Origin: an uncultured Acidobacteriota bacterium
GTDB lineage: Bacteria > Acidobacteriota > Thermoanaerobaculia > Gp7-AA8
NCBI GenBank assembly: GCA_946887105.1
Contig: CAMPKJ010000193.1
Coordinates: forward strand, 1-9,397
DNA: 9,397 nt
Direction of reading: 5' to 3'
Shown here: positions 2,621-9,397 of the stretch, one piece after another
Position numbering within the stretch: position 1 is the first letter of the stretch
Layout of the letters: each line of letters opens with the position of its first letter
Notes under the pieces: model-generated
Told to the model about the DNA's origin: nothing
The model's input: the letters and a program-made list of their open reading frames with translations, nothing else
Database searches by the model: none
Made by a program: the position numbers and the translations under genes

Positions 2621-3934
2621 TCAGTCGTAGTACTCGTGGCCCACGTGCGTGATCGGGTCCGCACCCATGGCCCACCGCATGGTGTTTTTCATTTTCATGA
2701 GCTGGATGAACAGGTCGTGCTCGGGATAGAGCTCCGGCGCGTGCATCGGGCACTTGAAGTAGAAGCTCAGCCACTCCTGCACGCCGGAGAACCCCGCGCG
2801 CGCGGCCCAGTCGAGCAGCAGCGCCAGGTCCAGCACGATCGGCGCGGCCAGGATCGAGTCGCGGCAGAGAAAGTCGATCTTGATCTGCATCGGATAGCCG
2901 AGCCAGCCGAAGATGTCGATGTTGTCCCACCCTTCCTTGGCGTCGCCGCGGGGCGGGTAGTACTCGATGCGCACTTTGTGAAAGAGATTTCCGTAGAGGC
3001 TCTGGTGCAGGTGCGGCTGCAGGATGTAATCGAGCACGCCGAGCTTGGTCACTTCCTTCGACTTGAACGAGCCCGGATCGTCGAGCACCTCGCCGTCGCG
3101 ATTGCCGAGAATGTTGGTCGAGAACCAGCCGCGGACGCCGAGCATGCGCGCCTTCAGCGCCGGAGCGACCACGGTCTTCATCATGGTCTGCCCGGTCTTG
3201 AAGTCCTTTCCGGCCACCGGCACGCCCATCTCGCGCGCGAGCTGGAACGCCGCGGGAAAATCGAGCGCGAGGTTCGGAGCGCCATTCGCGAACGGCACGC
3301 CTTCCTTGATGCAGGCCCAGGCGTACAGCTGCGAGCTGGAGATGGTCGGATCGTTGTGATGGAGCGCGGCCTCGAAGGTCTTCGGCGTGTGATGCACGCC
3401 GTTCGCGGAGACGTAGACCTCGGTCGATCCGCACCAGACCGCGACGGCACGCGCGCAATCGTTGTCGCGTTTGAATCTGCGGATGTCGTCGCGCAACTGC
3501 TCGACCATGTCCGCCTTGGTGGCGCCCTGCTTCACATGCGTTCCGTTCAGGCGGCGCACGTATTCGGGATAGAAGACGCCGGGGAACGGCACGACGGCTT
3601 GCAGTTCGTCGCGAATGGGATCGAGGTGCTCGCGCGTGAGCACGTCGGCGTGCACGGCAGACTCGTATGCGTTCTCGGGGAAGATGTCCCACGCGCCGAA
3701 CACGAGCTGATCGAGCGTGGCCAATCCGAGGAAGTCGCGGATGGGCGGAGACTGCGCGTCCGTGCGCTTGCCGAGACGGATCGTGCCGAGCTGGGTGAGC
3801 GAGCCGATCGGTTGCGCGAGACCGCGGCGCGCGAGCATCACGCCGGCGATGAATGTCGTGGCCACCGCGCCGAGACCGGGCAGAAGTACACCGAGGCGTC
3901 CTTCAGGGGAGCGGATCGACTGGGGCTGTTTCAA
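2621..3934 (-). CDS. ino1: myo-Inositol-1-phosphate synthase
   Basis: The 437-residue enzyme converts D-glucose 6-phosphate to 1L-myo-inositol 1-phosphate (EC 5.5.1.4) with bound NAD, the first step to all inositol compounds. Visible landmarks are the N-terminal nucleotide-binding strand and glycine loop (GVLLPGLGAVATTF, 15-28), AWDIFPENAY at 81-90, a Ser/Ala-rich block with FANGAPN at 215-221, the signature GKDFKTGQT at 242-250, STNILGNRDG at 272-281, and a KIDFLCRDS segment at 352-360. These are the conserved blocks of the family. It is longer than the roughly 370-390 residues of many actinobacterial and archaeal enzymes and shorter than the eukaryotic ones. The start is TTG at 3934, supported by a perfect GGAGGT (complement of 3943-3948) eight bases upstream. 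It is divergent from the sugar operon and followed at once by the chaB-like gene. The assignment is firm. Confidence 0.95.
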   Translation of the reverse strand: MKQPQSIRSPEGRLGVLLPGLGAVATTFIAGVMLARRGLAQPIGSLTQLGTIRLGKRTDAQSPPIRDFLGLATLDQLVFGAWDIFPENAYESAVHADVLTREHLDPIRDELQAVVPFPGVFYPEYVRRLNGTHVKQGATKADMVEQLRDDIRRFKRDNDCARAVAVWCGSTEVYVSANGVHHTPKTFEAALHHNDPTISSSQLYAWACIKEGVPFANGAPNLALDFPAAFQLAREMGVPVAGKDFKTGQTMMKTVVAPALKARMLGVRGWFSTNILGNRDGEVLDDPGSFKSKEVTKLGVLDYILQPHLHQSLYGNLFHKVRIEYYPPRGDAKEGWDNIDIFGWLGYPMQIKIDFLCRDSILAAPIVLDLALLLDWAARAGFSGVQEWLSFYFKCPMHAPELYPEHDLFIQLMKMKNTMRWAMGADPITHVGHEYYD

Positions 3935-4014: not shown

Positions 4015-4908
4015 TTGCATCGTGAGCAAGCCGTGCTGGAGCAGATCGTCATCACATCGCAAGCGCAGAACCACTCCGTTCTGATGCGTGAGCTGGTCAC
4101 GCAATTTCCGTCCGTGTCCATCACCACGACCGACGAGAACGTGGCGGAAGAGATCCGGATCCGCGCGAATGAATGGCGCCGCCGCGACTTCGACGTTTAT
4201 CGCTTCGACTACGAAATCGATCGCGCGGGAGACGAAGATCTGACGCTGCACATCGTCGATGACGATCCGCCGCGCCCCGCCGCGCTGGAGATCCTGAATC
4301 GCTGCCAGCGCGCGATCGGCCGGCGCAATCGCCACACGCAGACGGTGCGCTTCGAAAGAGCGCTGGCCGCCTTTCGCGGCCTGCACGATCTGGCCAAGCC
4401 GCTGGTGCGTGCCGACTACAACCATGCGCTCGACACCTGGCAGTGGTTGCTGCGCCTCGAGCCGGACGCGCCGCTGGCGTTGCAGCTGGCCGCGCTCTTT
4501 CACGACATCGAGCGGCTCGACTCGGAGGCGGACGTGCGCATCGAGCATCGCGCGCCCGATTACATCGCGTTCAAACAGCTCCACGCCGCGCGCGGCGCCG
4601 AAAAGGCGTGCATGATTCTCGAGCGGTGCGGCGTCGACGCGAACACGCGCACCCGCGTGGCCGAGCTCATCACGCAACACGAGCAACGATCGACGGAGGA
4701 CGTCGAGGTGGCGGTGCTCAACGATGCCGACGCGCTGTCGTTCTTCTCGCTCAACAGCACCGGATTCGCCGATTACTACGGTCCGGCGCACACGCGTCGC
4801 AAGCTCAGCTACACGCTCGCGCGCCTCGGCACCGCGGCGCGCGGCCATCTCTCCTCCATCCATCTGCGCAGCGACGTCGAGGAGCTGTTCGCATCGTGCG
4901 CCGAATGA
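4015..4908 (+). CDS. HD-domain protein, DUF4202-like (predicted metal-dependent phosphohydrolase)
   Basis: The protein has up to 297 residues. The longest start is TTG 4015 (a TAG sits in frame at 4009); GTG 4033 and ATG 4084 are alternatives, and none has a clear ribosome site. The C-terminal two thirds look like an HD fold: His137 in YNHALDTWQWL, the paired His163-Asp164 in LFHDIERL, then Asp237/Asp239 in VLNDADAL. Together these give the H...HD...D metal-ligand order. The stretch from AEKACMILERCGV to the end (RRKLSYTLARLGTAARGH) recalls DUF4202 proteins, in which I remember the HD pair as less obvious. Residues 1 to about 100 form a separate region with alternating strands and an acidic patch (IVDDD, 80-84) that I do not recognise. 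The family hydrolyses phosphoesters or nucleotides; the substrate here is unknown. Its stop overlaps the next start (ATGA), so it heads the operon. Confidence 0.7.
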   Translation: MHREQAVLEQIVITSQAQNHSVLMRELVTQFPSVSITTTDENVAEEIRIRANEWRRRDFDVYRFDYEIDRAGDEDLTLHIVDDDPPRPAALEILNRCQRAIGRRNRHTQTVRFERALAAFRGLHDLAKPLVRADYNHALDTWQWLLRLEPDAPLALQLAALFHDIERLDSEADVRIEHRAPDYIAFKQLHAARGAEKACMILERCGVDANTRTRVAELITQHEQRSTEDVEVAVLNDADALSFFSLNSTGFADYYGPAHTRRKLSYTLARLGTAARGHLSSIHLRSDVEELFASCAE

Positions 4909-5960
4909 ACGTGGTCGTGTTCGGCCTGACCATCAGCTCGTCGTGGGGCAACGGGCACGCCACGCTCTGGCGGGGTCTCTGCTCGGCGCTGGCGCGGAGC
5001 GGTCACCGGGTGGTCTTCTTCGAGCGCGACGTTCTCTATTACCGCTCGCATCGCGACGTTCACGCGAGCGACGCGTTCGAGCTCGTGCTTTATGACAAAT
5101 GGGAGTACGTCCACGCCACGGTCCAGCGCGAGCTCGCGCGCGCCGACGCCGCGATCGTGACGTCGTACTGTCCCGACGCATTCGATGCCACGGCGGCGAT
5201 GCTCGCGTCGCCGGCGCGGCTGAAGATCTTCTACGACCTCGACACGCCGATCACGCTCGACCGTCTCGAGCGCGGCGAGACCGTCGACTACCTCTGGCCC
5301 GAAGGACTGGAGCCGTTCGACATCGTGCTCAGTTACACGGGCGGCAGCGCGCTCGACGAACTGCGCAAGCTCGGCGCGCGCGAAGTGCATCCGCTGTATG
5401 GCAGCGTCGATCCGTCCGCGCATCATCCCGTCGTTTCCGCGGAGCGCTATCGCTGCCGGCTGTCGTATCTCGGCACGTACGCCGAAGACCGCCAGGCCGC
5501 GCTGGAGCGGCTCTTCCTGGATACCGCGCGGCGGCTGCCGGACGCGCGGTTCATCCTCGGCGGATCGCAGTATCCGGAGAGCTTCCCGTGGTCGGACAAC
5601 GTCTGGTATCTGGAGCACGTGCCGCCCGGCGATCATCCGGCATTTTTCTGTTCGTCGGACGCGACGCTCAACGTCACGCGCGGCGCGATGGCGAAGCGCG
5701 GCTACTGTCCGTCGGGACGGCTGTTCGAGGCGGCGGCCTGCGGCGTTCCGATCGTCAGCGACGACTGGCCGGGTCTGGACGAGTTCTTCACGCCCGAGGA
5801 GATTCTGGTCGCGCGCGACACGGACGAGGCGGTGGCGCTGCTCTCGCGTCCGCGGGAGGAGCTGCGTGCCGCCGGGGACGCCGCGCGCGCACGCGTGCTG
5901 CGCGATCACACCGCCGATCGCCGCGCCGCGGAGCTGGTCGGAATCATGAGGAGGATCTGA
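4905..5960 (+). CDS. CgeB-like GT-B glycosyltransferase
   Basis: The protein has 351 residues from ATG 4905, which overlaps the HD-gene stop as ATGA. No good ribosome site precedes it, so translation probably relies on coupling. It shows two Rossmann-like halves. The first is MNVVVFGLTI with SSSWGNGHATLWRGL at 11-25, then VVFFERD and KIFYDLDTP at 107-115. The second begins near RLSYLGTY (185-192) and contains FILGGSQYPE and GRLFEAAACGVPIVSDDWPG at 271-290, the conserved C-terminal donor-binding block of GT-B enzymes, followed by LDEFF. This layout matches CgeB / Glyco_trans_1_2-type proteins. No signal peptide or membrane span is seen, so it is cytoplasmic. It should move a sugar from an activated donor, plausibly the one made by the next gene. 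Donor and acceptor are not readable. A much longer open frame upstream of the ATG is antiparallel-style GC noise inside the HD gene. Confidence 0.85.
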   Translation: MNVVVFGLTISSSWGNGHATLWRGLCSALARSGHRVVFFERDVLYYRSHRDVHASDAFELVLYDKWEYVHATVQRELARADAAIVTSYCPDAFDATAAMLASPARLKIFYDLDTPITLDRLERGETVDYLWPEGLEPFDIVLSYTGGSALDELRKLGAREVHPLYGSVDPSAHHPVVSAERYRCRLSYLGTYAEDRQAALERLFLDTARRLPDARFILGGSQYPESFPWSDNVWYLEHVPPGDHPAFFCSSDATLNVTRGAMAKRGYCPSGRLFEAAACGVPIVSDDWPGLDEFFTPEEILVARDTDEAVALLSRPREELRAAGDAARARVLRDHTADRRAAELVGIMRRI

Positions 5961-6748
5961 TGTGGGGCATCATCCCGGCGGCCGGAATCGGCAGCCGCAT
6001 CCAGCCACTCGCATTTTCGAAGGAACTGCTGCCGGTCGGCTCGAGGCACGACGGCGAGACGGAGCGGCCGCGCGCGGTCAGCGAGTATCTGCTCGAGCGC
6101 ATGGTCGCCGGCGGCGCGACGCGCATCTGTTTCGTGATCGCGCCGGGCAAGTCGGACATCATCGAGTACTACGGCGGCAGCTACGGTCCCGCGGAGATCT
6201 GCTACGTCGTGCAGCCGCAGCCGGGAGGTCTCTGCGACGCGCTCTTTCGCGCGCTGCCGCTGATCCACGATCACGAGATGGTGCTGGTCGGATTGCCGGA
6301 CACGGTCTGGTTTCCGGCGGCGGGCCTGCGTCTGCTCGGCGATGACGATCTGTCGTTTCTGCTGTTTCCGGTCGAGCGGCCGGAGCTGTTCGATGCCGTC
6401 GTTTCGGACGACGCGGGCAACGTGCTCGAGATCCAGGTGAAGCAGCAGGACGCGACGTCGCACTGGATCTGGGGTGCGTTCAAACTGCGCGGCTCGGTCC
6501 TGCGCGAGCTGCACGAGCTGTGGTGTACGCGCTCGCCACGCGACCCGTACATGGGCACGCTGGTGAATGCCTGGATGGCTCGCGGCGGACGCGCGGCAGG
6601 CGTGCGGCGCGGCGAAGCGTACGTGGACGTCGGAACACTGAACGGTTATCGCGAGGCCATCGATCTGCTGCGCGAGCGCGATGGCCTCGCAGAGGAAGGG
6701 TTTGCGGCGCGCCCCGCGCGCCTGATCGCCGTAGGAGAGCATGCATGA
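5960..6748 (+). CDS. Sugar-1-phosphate nucleotidyltransferase (RmlA/GalU-like)
   Basis: The 262-residue cytoplasmic enzyme is expected to join a nucleoside triphosphate to a sugar 1-phosphate, giving a nucleotide sugar and pyrophosphate. It opens with the family signature IIPAAGIGSRIQPLAFSKEL: Gly9-x-Gly11-x-Arg13, Pro16 and Lys21, with Pro25 after it. QPGGLCDAL at 87-95 fits the base-recognition loop, Asp114 in GLPDTVW the first metal ligand, and VDVGTLNGY at 222-230 the second metal site (usual 'D.GT...'). The start ATG 5960 overlaps the preceding TGA (TGATG) and has a strong GAGGAGG at 5948-5954. The middle insert is short, as in enzymes without an added C-terminal helix domain. The sugar and nucleotide cannot be named. 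Inositol-1-phosphate cytidylyltransferases belong to the same superfamily, so that is an alternative given the divergent ino1, but a hexose-1-phosphate substrate is more ordinary. Confidence 0.85.
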   Translation: MWGIIPAAGIGSRIQPLAFSKELLPVGSRHDGETERPRAVSEYLLERMVAGGATRICFVIAPGKSDIIEYYGGSYGPAEICYVVQPQPGGLCDALFRALPLIHDHEMVLVGLPDTVWFPAAGLRLLGDDDLSFLLFPVERPELFDAVVSDDAGNVLEIQVKQQDATSHWIWGAFKLRGSVLRELHELWCTRSPRDPYMGTLVNAWMARGGRAAGVRRGEAYVDVGTLNGYREAIDLLRERDGLAEEGFAARPARLIAVGEHA

Positions 6749-7455
6749 TGAGTGTCGATATCGAAGCCGAAGTGCGCCGGCTGGGTCCGTGGTTCCACAA
6801 TCTCACTCTCGGCGGTGTCCGCACGGCGCCCGAGCACTTCCTCGGCGACTATCCGCGCATGAAATGGGAGAAGTTCGCGGATGCGCTTCCGCGCGATCTG
6901 ACCGGCAAGTCGGTGCTCGACGTCGGCTGCAACGCCGGCTTCTATGCGATGGAGATGAAGCGGCGCGGCGCCGTACGCGTGCTCGGCATCGACAGCGATC
7001 AGCGCTATCTCGATCAGGCCCGTTTCGCGGCTTCGGTGGAGGGACTGGACATCGAGTTCGCGCAGCGCTCCGTCTACGACGTCGGCGATCTCGGCGAGCG
7101 GTTCGACCTGGTGCTGTTCATGGGCGTGCTCTATCACCTGCGCTATCCGCTGCTCGCGCTCGATCGCCTGCGCGACGTGGTCGGCGAGATGCTGGTCTTT
7201 CAATCGATGCTGCGCGGCGACAGCGGCGTCATGGAGCTCGCCGGCGATTACCCGTTCGACGAGCGCGCAATGTTCGATGATCCCGCGTATCCGAAGATGT
7301 TCTTCGTCGAGCAGCGTTACGCGAACGATCCGACGAACTGGTGGATCCCGAACCGCGCGTGCGCCGAGGCGATGTTGCGCAGTGCCGGATTCAGGATCAT
7401 TGCGCACCCCGAGGAAGAAGTGTTCCTCTGCGGCCTGGCGGAGGGAGAGGCATGA
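6745..7455 (+). CDS. SAM-dependent methyltransferase, TIGR04290 (Rta_06860)-like
   Basis: The protein has 236 residues. ATG 6745 overlaps the upstream stop as ATGA and has AGGAGAG at 6733-6739; a second ATG follows directly. It is a class I Rossmann methyltransferase: motif I is VLDVGCNAGFY at 57-67, the acidic residue after strand 2 is Asp83 (GIDSD), and FMGVLYHLRYPLLALD at 125-140 follows strand 4. An N-terminal block PWFHNL..GG.RTAPEHFLGDYP (15-37) and a C-terminal block NDPTNWWIPN (194-203) flank the fold. From memory these two blocks match the TIGR04290 family, distantly similar to the tRNA carboxymethyluridine enzyme CmoB. The position between a nucleotidyltransferase and a glycoside hydrolase argues for a sugar or glycoside as substrate rather than tRNA, but this is inference. 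The fold is certain; the subfamily is fairly sure. Confidence 0.85.
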   Translation: MMSVDIEAEVRRLGPWFHNLTLGGVRTAPEHFLGDYPRMKWEKFADALPRDLTGKSVLDVGCNAGFYAMEMKRRGAVRVLGIDSDQRYLDQARFAASVEGLDIEFAQRSVYDVGDLGERFDLVLFMGVLYHLRYPLLALDRLRDVVGEMLVFQSMLRGDSGVMELAGDYPFDERAMFDDPAYPKMFFVEQRYANDPTNWWIPNRACAEAMLRSAGFRIIAHPEEEVFLCGLAEGEA

Positions 7456-8336
7456 TCGAAGCGGTCATGCTGTGGAACGAGCCGAACAATCTCTCGCACT
7501 GGGACTTCGAGCTCGATCCGGAGTGGCAGATCTTCTCGGACATGGTGCGCGTCGCGTCCGACGCCATCCGTACCGAGAACGGCAGCATCCTGCGCGTTCT
7601 CGGCGGGATCTCTCCGATCGATCCGTTGTTCATCGAGCGGATGAGCCGGCAGGGAGTGCTGGACCGGATCGACGTCGTGGCGGTGCACGGCTTCCCGCTC
7701 GACTGGAACCACTGGCAGATTCACGACTGGCCGGCCAAGATCGAGGAGATCCGCGCCGTCACGCACCATCCGGTCTGGGTGAGCGAAGCGGGCGTCTCGT
7801 CGTTCGGCGCCGAGGAGGTGCAGGAGTTCGGGCTGGAACGGACGGCCCGGCTGCTGATCGGCAAGGCCGATCGCATTCACTGGTACAGCCTGCACGACCT
7901 TCCGCGCGCGTGGCCGGCCACGACGCGCCATCGCGAGGCCGAGGGATCGTCGTACTACCGGCACTTCTACATGGGCCTGTTGCGCGAGGACGGGACGCGC
8001 AAGCTGGCATTTCACAAGTTCCGCGAGTTCACGCCGCACCTCGGCATCTGCCAGTGGTTCCACTTCGAAGATCCGCGCCTCGACTCGTCCGTGCAGCTCC
8101 TGAAGGAGCTCGGCGTGAAGAAGCTGCGCACCGGCTTGAGCTGGGCGGACAGCCATCGTCCGAACGCCGATCAATGGTTCGACCGGCAGATGAAGGCGCT
8201 GGAGGATTTCGACGTGACGCTGACGTATTGCTTCACGCCCGAGTCGTGCGGCCTGCGCGCGCACCACACCAGCCCGCCGCAACGCGTGGAGGAGTTCGCG
8301 GACTTCTGCGCGCGGATGACGAAGAGGTATGTGTGA
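7452..8336 (+). CDS. Glycoside hydrolase, clan A-like, apparently circularly permuted
   Basis: The protein has 294 residues. ATG 7452 overlaps the upstream stop as ATGA, and GAGGGAG at 7441-7447 is four bases before it, so the start is secure. Residues 1-17 read MIEAVMLWNEPNNLSHW, with Glu10 as the acid/base in the W-N-E-P-N motif at the end of barrel strand 4 in clan-A retaining enzymes. His79 (VAVHGFP) fits strand 6, Glu112 (VWVSEAG) the nucleophile on strand 7, and IHWYSLHD (142-149) strand 8. Residues 198-294 then resemble strands 1-3 and helix 3 of the same fold: GICQWFHFEDP, VKKLRTGLSWAD, a WFD-containing helix, VTLTYCFTPE, and FADFCARMTKRY. No signal peptide is seen, so it probably acts in the cytoplasm. 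Substrate is unknown; distant likeness to beta-xylosidase-type proteins is only suggestive. Both catalytic Glu are present, so activity is plausible. Confidence 0.8.
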   Translation: MIEAVMLWNEPNNLSHWDFELDPEWQIFSDMVRVASDAIRTENGSILRVLGGISPIDPLFIERMSRQGVLDRIDVVAVHGFPLDWNHWQIHDWPAKIEEIRAVTHHPVWVSEAGVSSFGAEEVQEFGLERTARLLIGKADRIHWYSLHDLPRAWPATTRHREAEGSSYYRHFYMGLLREDGTRKLAFHKFREFTPHLGICQWFHFEDPRLDSSVQLLKELGVKKLRTGLSWADSHRPNADQWFDRQMKALEDFDVTLTYCFTPESCGLRAHHTSPPQRVEEFADFCARMTKRYV

Positions 8337-8670
8337 CGGGCGCCGGGTGGTCTGTGTCGATCTGAACGGCGTGCTCGATTCGTACGCCGGATGGCGCGGT
8401 GCGGAACATTGGGATCCGCCGCGCGCGGGCGCGGAGGCGTTCCTGCAGTCGCTGCGCGTGAATGGCTTTCGCATCGTGATCTTCACGACGCGCTGGCCCG
8501 ATGACGCGAAGCGCTGGCTCGACGAGCACGGCCTGATGCGCTACGTCGACGAAGTGACCGATCGCAAACCGGCCGCGCACGTATTCGTCGACGACCGCGC
8601 CGTCTGTTTCCGCGGCGACTTCGACGCCACGCTCGCGGACGTGCTGTCGTTCAGCGCGCACTGGGAATGA
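8329..8670 (+). CDS. Small HAD-like phosphatase with Asn in motif I
   Basis: The 113-residue protein has HAD superfamily motifs in order. Motif I is CVDLNGVLD at 9-17, with nucleophile Asp11. Motif II is FTTRW at 52-56 with Thr53/54. Lys80 in TDRKPAAH serves as motif III and VFVDDRA (Asp88-Asp89) as motif IV. No cap domain fits in this length, so it resembles the minimal capless HADs. The second motif I aspartate, normally the general acid/base of phosphatases (DxD), is Asn13 here. That could slow or alter catalysis, or mark a subfamily with this residue. The ATG at 8329 overlaps the hydrolase gene by 8 bases, with GAGG almost touching it; GTG 8347 is a weaker option. As last gene of the operon it probably removes phosphate from a small sugar or intermediate. 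The 3' end overlaps the convergent kinase-like gene by 20 bases. Confidence 0.75.
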   Translation: MCDGRRVVCVDLNGVLDSYAGWRGAEHWDPPRAGAEAFLQSLRVNGFRIVIFTTRWPDDAKRWLDEHGLMRYVDEVTDRKPAAHVFVDDRAVCFRGDFDATLADVLSFSAHWE

Positions 8671-9397
8671 GCCGGGCGTAGCGCGCCGCCTGCTCCGCAT
8701 TTCCGGCCAGCGTGTGGAAGCCGTACCAGAAGGCGAGATAACAGATCGTGTAGAAGTGCAGCACGCGCCGGGACCAGCTCCGGCCGGTCAGGCGCGCAAC
8801 GGCGTCCGTGACGTCGAGGTCGAGCTCGACCATCGCGCCGGCCAGATCCCAGGCGATGTCCTGACAGCCGATCAGATCGTGTCCCGCGTGATGATCGACG
8901 CCGTCGCACTTGAGGATCGTGCCGTCGTTCGCGACGATCCACTCCTCGGCGTGCATCTTGTTGTCGGTGACCACGCGTCGTGCGCACGCTTCCACTTCGC
9001 CGATGTGCTCCGAGACATCGACGCCAGTGTTGAAGCGCGCCATCGCGGCGAGTTGGTGCGCGCTCGCGCCGCGGCGCGTGGCCGGCCAGTGGTTGTTGCG
9101 GAAGGCGAGATAGCGCGCCACGGTCTCCGGCAGCGCATTGCGATCGACGGGACGCGACTGCTCGAGCCAGCGCGTGAGGAGGAAGCCGCGGTGCTGGCCG
9201 ATGACCGGCGGCGCGAAGCCGGCTTCCGCGAGCTCGCAGGCGCGCGCGTGCATTTCGTCGCCGCGCAATCCGAGTCCGTTGAACTTTGCGAGCGTTCCGT
9301 CCGCGAGCCGGTACTTGCGGCGGCTGCCGCCGGGCAACTCGTGCGCGCCGTCGAAGAGACGCAGCTCTTCGAAATCGGTCACGGCCTTGGTCACGCT
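8651..9397 (-). CDS. Kinase-fold (aminoglycoside/choline kinase-like) protein, 5' end possibly outside window
   Basis: The leftward frame is open to the right edge. GTG 9394 is a possible start giving 247 residues, but the true start may lie beyond. The N-terminal part has small-lobe features: GGSRRKYRLADGTLAKFNG with Lys37 in an A-K pair, then an acidic residue in a helix (Glu47) and FLLTRWLE (71-78), like the hinge. The second half has a catalytic-loop-like segment (NKMHAEEWIV, 145-154) and LKCDGVDHH (161-169), where Asp164 fits the metal-binding Asp. QDIAWDLAGA (178-187) matches the 'D.A.DLA' helix of APH/choline-kinase folds. The usual H-x-D...N catalytic residues are not recognisable: by my alignment the Asp and Asn positions are Lys146 and Glu151. 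It may be a divergent small-molecule kinase or an inactive relative. It converges on and overlaps the HAD gene, and may belong to the same pathway. Confidence 0.55.
   Translation of the reverse strand, partial: SVTKAVTDFEELRLFDGAHELPGGSRRKYRLADGTLAKFNGLGLRGDEMHARACELAEAGFAPPVIGQHRGFLLTRWLEQSRPVDRNALPETVARYLAFRNNHWPATRRGASAHQLAAMARFNTGVDVSEHIGEVEACARRVVTDNKMHAEEWIVANDGTILKCDGVDHHAGHDLIGCQDIAWDLAGAMVELDLDVTDAVARLTGRSWSRRVLHFYTICYLAFWYGFHTLAGNAEQAARYARLIPSAR

Follow-up and report, generated by a model that had tools for sequence, protein, structure and literature searches.

Does the gene at positions 7452–8336 (forward strand) of contig CAMPKJ010000193.1, a 9,397-nucleotide stretch of DNA from an uncultured Acidobacteriota bacterium (GenBank assembly GCA_946887105.1) that is referred to here, as a whole, as ‘the window’, encode a glycosidase in which the order of the barrel strands has been rotated along the chain? 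An earlier note, made from the letters of the DNA, had read its 294-residue product—a single open frame in the window's list of open reading frames (ORFs)—as a circularly permuted triosephosphate isomerase (TIM)-barrel hydrolase. Crossed alignments, a rotation scan and a predicted model comprising one barrel support this interpretation; we regard the call of circular permutation as practically certain to be right, and the more specific description of the protein as a permuted clan-A-type glycosidase as likely.

A search of plasmid records returned distant matches within proteins named NAD-dependent epimerase or short-chain dehydrogenase/reductase (SDR) oxidoreductase; the N-terminal 300 residues of these proteins align to the window protein as residues 198–293 followed by residues 5–185. 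As normally ordered homologues have been found, the permutation rests on direct comparison and not on inference alone. Compared by BLASTP with one such epimerase-fused protein, the window protein in its native order gives two crossed pieces of 101 and 50 bits, and the rotated sequence one alignment of 139 bits (33% identity over 294 columns); a second epimerase-fused protein aligns to the rotated sequence with 127 bits and 30% identity. A homology search with the normally ordered domain found 315 proteins, both fused and free-standing, and the 120 listed, together with the two found first, make up a comparison set of 122, all of which match the window protein. Two native-order pieces are seen for 108 of them and are crossed in all 108, the best rotated piece outscores the best native piece in 115 of the 122, and the strand-2 motif precedes WNEPN in each of the 73 (of 122) that carry both patterns. 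The reverse comparison, in which the normally ordered protein P0235 served as query, matches 81 of 81 loci with the permuted gene (described below): 80 as crossed pieces, none in linear order and one as a single piece.

The rotation scan, in which the start of the chain was moved in steps of three and the mean local alignment score taken against eight normally ordered homologues, has one broad optimum at the join between helix 8 and strand 1, with its peak at start residue 193 (472, as compared with 305 for the native order); for five further permuted proteins the peak lies no more than three residues away. A normally ordered control scores highest when left unrotated (700 versus 518 when cut at 198). 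The rearrangement suggested by the earlier note, 198–294 followed by 1–197, fits this rotated register, save that the best in silico cut falls before residue 193 rather than 198. At the join itself, the permuted chain looks as if a free normally ordered protein ran on from its C-terminal helix into its own N-terminus, only a few residues lying between, and in the rotated alignments shown the two forms are 30–40% identical over about 300 columns. Profile comparison with PslG, the closest solved relative by sequence (an endoglycosidase of Pseudomonas aeruginosa belonging to CAZy family GH39; 4zn2, 5bx9), gives 41.5 bits (E 8.4e-10) in one continuous stretch for the rotated profile and 24.2 bits (E 1.7e-4), with no single stretch passing alone, for the native order. 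Judged by alignment, the protein is a circular permutant, in that it aligns end to end with its normally ordered relatives only after rotation.

Enzymes of clan GH-A are defined by a (beta/alpha)8 barrel with an Asn-Glu acid/base on strand 4 and a Glu nucleophile on strand 7. We modelled the window protein with AlphaFold2 (AF2), using a normally ordered homologue as control, and assigned strands by DSSP. The predicted model is a single eight-stranded barrel—neither two partial domains nor a non-barrel fold, the outcomes that the earlier note had named as telling against it. Its parts are given below; ‘invariant’ marks residues that do not vary in any of the 201 permuted sequences compared (120 proteins and 81 loci, partly overlapping):

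7452..8336, + strand: putative circularly permuted clan-A-like glycosidase, 294 amino acids
7452..8027, + strand: residues 1–192, strands 4–8 (2–7, 47–50, 75–80, 108–113, 142–145) and the helix after strand 8, assigned on the AF2 model by DSSP; corresponds in alignments to the later two thirds of the homologues in normal order
7473..7487, + strand: WNEPN motif (residues 8–12) after strand 4, with Asn9 and Glu10 the putative acid/base; Trp8, Asn9 and Glu10 invariant
7686..7688, + strand: His79, strand 6, invariant
7785..7787, + strand: Glu112, strand 7, putative nucleophile, invariant
7881..7883, + strand: Trp144, strand 8, invariant
8028..8042, + strand: residues 193–197, short join from the old C-terminus (helix 8) to the old N-terminus (strand 1), from the rotation scan and junction alignment
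8043..8333, + strand: residues 198–294, strands 1–3 (198–200, 224–230, 254–260) and helix 3 in the AF2 model; corresponds in alignments to the first third of the homologues in normal order
8127..8129, + strand: Arg226, strand 2, within the RTGLSW motif, invariant

Trp231 is likewise invariant in all 201. The model agrees with the earlier note in placing WNEPN at the start of the chain and Glu112 on strand 7 (within 108–113); the strand order that the note had given—4, 6, 7 and 8, then 1–3 ending in a helix—also stands, strand 5 (47–50) having been overlooked. In the rotated register, the active-site residues of the permuted form pair with the same residues of its normally ordered relatives. 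Going by model positions and invariance, the protein has the fold and residues of clan GH-A, and in the predicted models it keeps the fold of its relatives, the former ends being linked and the present ends lying at another place; we take Glu10 to be the acid/base and Glu112 the nucleophile, following the general clan GH-A pattern. A PslG-related barrel would have been closed up behind helix 8 through a linker of a few residues and opened between helix 3 and strand 4, where the chain now has its ends. Although it runs from the acid/base strand, this chain would bring the clan-A residues together again: Asn-Glu from strand 4, His from strand 6, Glu from strand 7, Trp from strand 8 and Arg from strand 2.

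Homologues keep the permuted order, a check that the earlier note had called for. The window protein finds at least 8000 proteins by homology search, and the 120 matches listed are 289–314 amino acids long; WNEPN is followed by an RT.LSW pattern in 119 of these 120, the remaining one simply having no match to the second pattern. Our locus sample comprises 81 loci (80, plus one Azospirillum plasmid locus) from Acidobacteria, Myxococcales, other Deltaproteobacteria, Verrucomicrobia, Chloroflexi, Gemmatimonadetes, Nitrospirae, Bacteroidota, Planctomycetes and several Proteobacteria. Throughout the sample the chain opens just before WNEPN and mostly ends just past an RY motif, some chains having short tails; an in-frame stop lies no more than 10 codons upstream of the matched start in 12 of the 81, and permuted protein identity is 68–85% in the 80 loci kept. 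Phage records gave no match. Within the window, the start codon at 7452 overlaps the stop codon (7453–7455) of an upstream methyltransferase gene as ATGA, and GGAGGGAGAGG, resembling a ribosome site, stands immediately 5′ of it; the two features by which the start had been fixed are both in the window sequence. The strand order is that encoded by the gene itself, and neither an assembly nor an annotation artefact: the earlier denial of an annotation error is upheld by the motif order among the listed homologues and by the upstream stops.

The notion that this is a standard barrel, its strands wrongly numbered through the pseudo-symmetry of the TIM barrel, is very improbable: the 30–40% identity appears only in the rotated register and comes from sequence rather than shape, the scan has its one broad optimum at the helix 8/strand 1 join while the control loses score, and the active-site residues match in that same register. 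We reject it on the identity, the optimum and the loss of score by the control. More improbable still is a misassembled or mis-started gene, the true protein beginning upstream in normal order. Long upstream open frames in some GC-rich loci would speak for such an error, but a start just before WNEPN recurs in 81 loci from many phyla, 12 of them with the nearby in-frame stops, the bases upstream in the window encode the methyltransferase in another frame, and the 120 listed homologues all fall within the one narrow range of length; a misannotated start is rejected on the loci, the stops and the methyltransferase frame. Some observations do count against a permuted clan-A barrel. Conserved loops of the model (11–17, 153–160 and 163–169) have a predicted local distance difference test (pLDDT) score below 50, and PF11790 rises only from 16.6 to 18.2 bits on rotation, both values lying below the 21-bit cut-off; the gain in profile score foreseen by the earlier note is borne out against PslG but not for Pfam.

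As to family, Pfam searches up to E 10 with both the native and rotated sequence listed no GH39 model (although filters may drop weak ones), the only matches being to PF11790 and, when rotated, PF07745, both below cut-off; the native sequence matched no NCBIfam family up to E 1. As no curated GH39 model matches, we describe the protein as GH39-like rather than as a member of GH39: the closest solved relatives of the permuted family by sequence are GH39 enzymes (PslG), but the permuted glycosidase does not have the strand order 1–8 of GH39. A fold search with the normally ordered homologue returned PslG as best match (18–19% identity) and other GH39 enzymes too; the search with the permuted model was uninformative, with GH39 absent from the best 50 matches and GH5, GH10 and other clan-A enzymes lower down. 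According to PMC11912335, PslG is of a retaining family and is encoded in a polysaccharide synthesis cluster, a setting of the type in which the permuted gene is found, but it is in normal order whereas the permuted chain starts at strand 4. The normally ordered homologues, whether alone (about 300–350 amino acids) or fused to an epimerase, share the active site at 30–40% identity after rotation; unlike the permuted form, they have strand order 1–8, and in those fused the epimerase follows helix 8 at the point where the permuted form joins strand 1. A search for the genomic setting of the free-standing ones gave no result.

Natural permutation of TIM barrels is already known: GH70 glucansucrases are permuted relatives of GH13, a case in which the catalytic barrel of a glycosidase has been circularly permuted in nature (PMC11299179), and transaldolase B and class I aldolase are TIM barrels related by a permutation with a shift of two units (PMC2213659). 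GH70 offers a like case of a family pair with permuted and non-permuted members, but its enzymes belong to clan GH-H and are multidomain and act on alpha-glucans; transaldolase B is not a glycosidase. General Pfam and PDB sequence searches gave no match to GH70 or GH13, no GH70-specific scoring having been made. No paper linking circular permutation with GH39 was found in the literature searched (subscription papers being mostly outside it), nor any whose title or beginning of abstract describes a permuted clan GH-A glycosidase; beta-glucosidases are named among natural permutants with the family not given (PMC2395249), and an earlier description within clan GH-A may thus exist.

A quick-method tree was built from 29 permuted rows, rotated beforehand, and 66 rows in normal order. 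A single branch (Shimodaira–Hasegawa-like approximate likelihood ratio test, SH-aLRT, 100; length 1.81) sets all the permuted rows apart, and the permuted form probably arose once. PslG is in normal order, as, to our knowledge, are clan-A enzymes in general, and the permutation is therefore derived wherever the root lies. We infer an origin by tandem duplication and trimming of both ends, because this fits the minimal join; no tandem double-domain intermediate was seen at lengths up to 1.75 times that of the query, no search having been aimed at one. The distribution of the gene is patchy: it occurs in two of the 199 genomes sampled within the phylum of G001 and eight of the 385 sampled within the class of G004, both counts including the centre genome chosen for having it. 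Plasmid records number 146, of which 97 match at 60–80% and 49 below 60%; CB3090 alone has two places.

The gene lies in the window among the following neighbours:

2621..3934, − strand: myo-inositol-1-phosphate synthase (PF07994, 323.8 bits), divergent from the operon
4015..4908, + strand: DUF4202 / HD-domain protein (95.3 bits)
4905..5960, + strand: CgeB-like glycosyltransferase (PF13524, 135.9 bits)
5960..6748, + strand: sugar nucleotidyltransferase (PF00483, 37.2 bits, cut-off 21.2), in ATGA overlap with the methyltransferase
6745..7455, + strand: TIGR04290 family methyltransferase (374.6 bits, cut-off 300), in ATGA overlap with the glycosidase start
8329..8670, + strand: small HAD-like ORF (PF00702, 22.0 bits, below the 26.4 cut-off), its start overlapping the glycosidase stop

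Glycosyltransferase, nucleotidyltransferase, methyltransferase, glycosidase and HAD-like ORF follow one another with successive overlaps of one to eight bases, and these five genes (4905–8670) therefore make up a tightly packed operon. ORFs resembling the HAD-like one are also seen at L001, L006 and L011. A 247-residue ORF at 8651–9394 (− strand) matches nothing in Pfam or NCBIfam at E values up to 1.

A wider context search compared 83 loci (L001–L083, 81 of them with the permuted gene; many end at contig or flank limits) with 22 query proteins. Relatives of the methyltransferase family are present in 64 of the 83, CgeB-like glycosyltransferases in 63, a nucleotidyltransferase in 47, a histidine phosphatase in 34 and a B12 radical-S-adenosylmethionine (SAM) protein (TIGR04295) in 27, with epimerases and other glycosyltransferases in part of them; in Sinorhizobium meliloti, the neighbours of the permuted gene include a polysaccharide pyruvyl transferase. 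The permuted enzyme is most likely part of a glycan-building gene cluster. Relatives of the myo-inositol-1-phosphate synthase occur in six of the 83 loci, and its adjoining position in the window perhaps points to an inositol-containing product. A 583-residue protein (L083:8972-10723) has relatives in 25 of the 83 loci and matches neither NCBIfam (E 0.01) nor Pfam (E 0.1). The literature searched yielded no paper on TIGR04290 / rhizo-twelve and none describing this combination of genes.

Within such a cluster the enzyme would most likely carry out retaining cleavage or transfer of a beta-glycosidic bond; by analogy, a glycan intermediate is our best guess for the substrate of such a retaining glycosidase or transglycosidase. 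Going solely by the chain, which begins on a barrel strand and leaves no room for a signal peptide, the enzyme is probably cytoplasmic. An alternative is that the protein keeps the glycosidase fold without being a hydrolase, its role being that of a transglycosidase or a non-hydrolytic partner. The seemingly synthetic, rather than degradative, nature of the cluster and the strong conservation of the protein across the 80 loci would suit this; we nevertheless consider it unlikely, if well short of negligible, as none of the clan-A catalytic residues examined varies among the 201 sequences and the copy seen to decay (below) is the fused one and not the permuted glycosidase. A transglycosidase would need those same residues and may still be what the protein is.

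The normally ordered, epimerase-fused domain, as borne by L005, L019, L048, L123, L187–L191, L201 and L223–L229, is found in the same type of cluster as the permuted gene; many fused copies are without a catalytic Glu. The normally ordered domain served as query against 87 genomes that have the permuted gene (43 + 40 + four, covering 79 of the 80 loci, with L009 left out); copies above about 50 bits were counted, and matches of about 48 bits or less to other clan-A-like frames (e.g. G586:C47, G004:C10, G634 and G638) were not. A normally ordered copy is also present in 16 of the 87, and the epimerase behind it was confirmed in 10 of 10 examined. Among the 15 decidable genomes, 13 have a fused copy without at least one catalytic Glu, the acid-base/nucleophile states being Q/Q (G588, G639), E/A (G586, G617, G653), T/Q (G597), T/A (G008), H/Q (G629), N/G (G622), R/E (G454), P/E (G628), R/R (G651) and A/G (G763). 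The normally ordered copy is intact in all six genomes that have it but not the permuted gene (13/15 versus 0/6 degenerate; Fisher's test, p 5e-4, ancestry ignored); outside this six-genome control, as plasmid records only, stand pAK26 and pR611, whose fused copies are intact, and L230–L232, in which both Glu are present. In L230 (a Xanthomonas sacchari plasmid record) the fused domain reads in two pieces, and its annotation is incomplete. Five normally ordered domains (P0170, P0181, P0183, P0185 and P0196) have LWNKP instead of LWNEP, the acid/base Glu being replaced by Lys. Amongst permuted-gene loci, the epimerase is without a glycosidase domain in 21 of the 24 whose upstream end is readable. 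Three were truncated where the locus stops, and L064, whose fused copy is intact, is outside this count, its epimerase being cut.

Several points weigh against tying these losses to the permuted gene. Both Glu are retained by the fused copy beside the permuted gene in G006, by that of G004 (with Asn changed to Thr) and by that of plasmid CB3090, which is outside the 15 decidable genomes and has both genes 15 kb apart; the copy of G411 is truncated by a contig end, undecidable and outside the catalytic count. The six control copies are all of one class, three of them nearly identical, and eight further degenerate copies come from proteins of unknown permuted-gene context. The tree used for pairing, which omits G411, G651 and one of two contig copies of G597 (the second) as partial or poorly aligned, permits only two phylogenetically independent pairs, and the association is therefore not significant once ancestry is counted. 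It is quite possible, if somewhat doubtful, that the permuted gene has nothing to do with the loss of Glu from the fused copy, and that this loss reflects a lineage effect, or a domain that is now a binding module: the paucity of independent pairs, the intact copies of G006 and CB3090 and the eight copies of unknown context all favour this, whereas the six or more switches from one state to the other, intact or degenerate, on an 89-row tree (rows of unknown context included), by differing substitutions (Q/Q, A, H/Q, T/Q, N/G, R and others), and the 21 of 24 loci whose epimerase stands without the domain, speak for a connection.

Our tentative estimate, just short of an even chance, is that the permuted enzyme displaced the normally ordered domain in the same pathway, one active copy being needed, whether the intact fused domain or the free permuted enzyme, and the fused domain usually decaying or gone where the permuted form is present; a single origin would then have been followed, in many genomes, by takeover from the epimerase-fused domain. 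If true, this would be a natural functional replacement by a circular permutant, visible in several stages.
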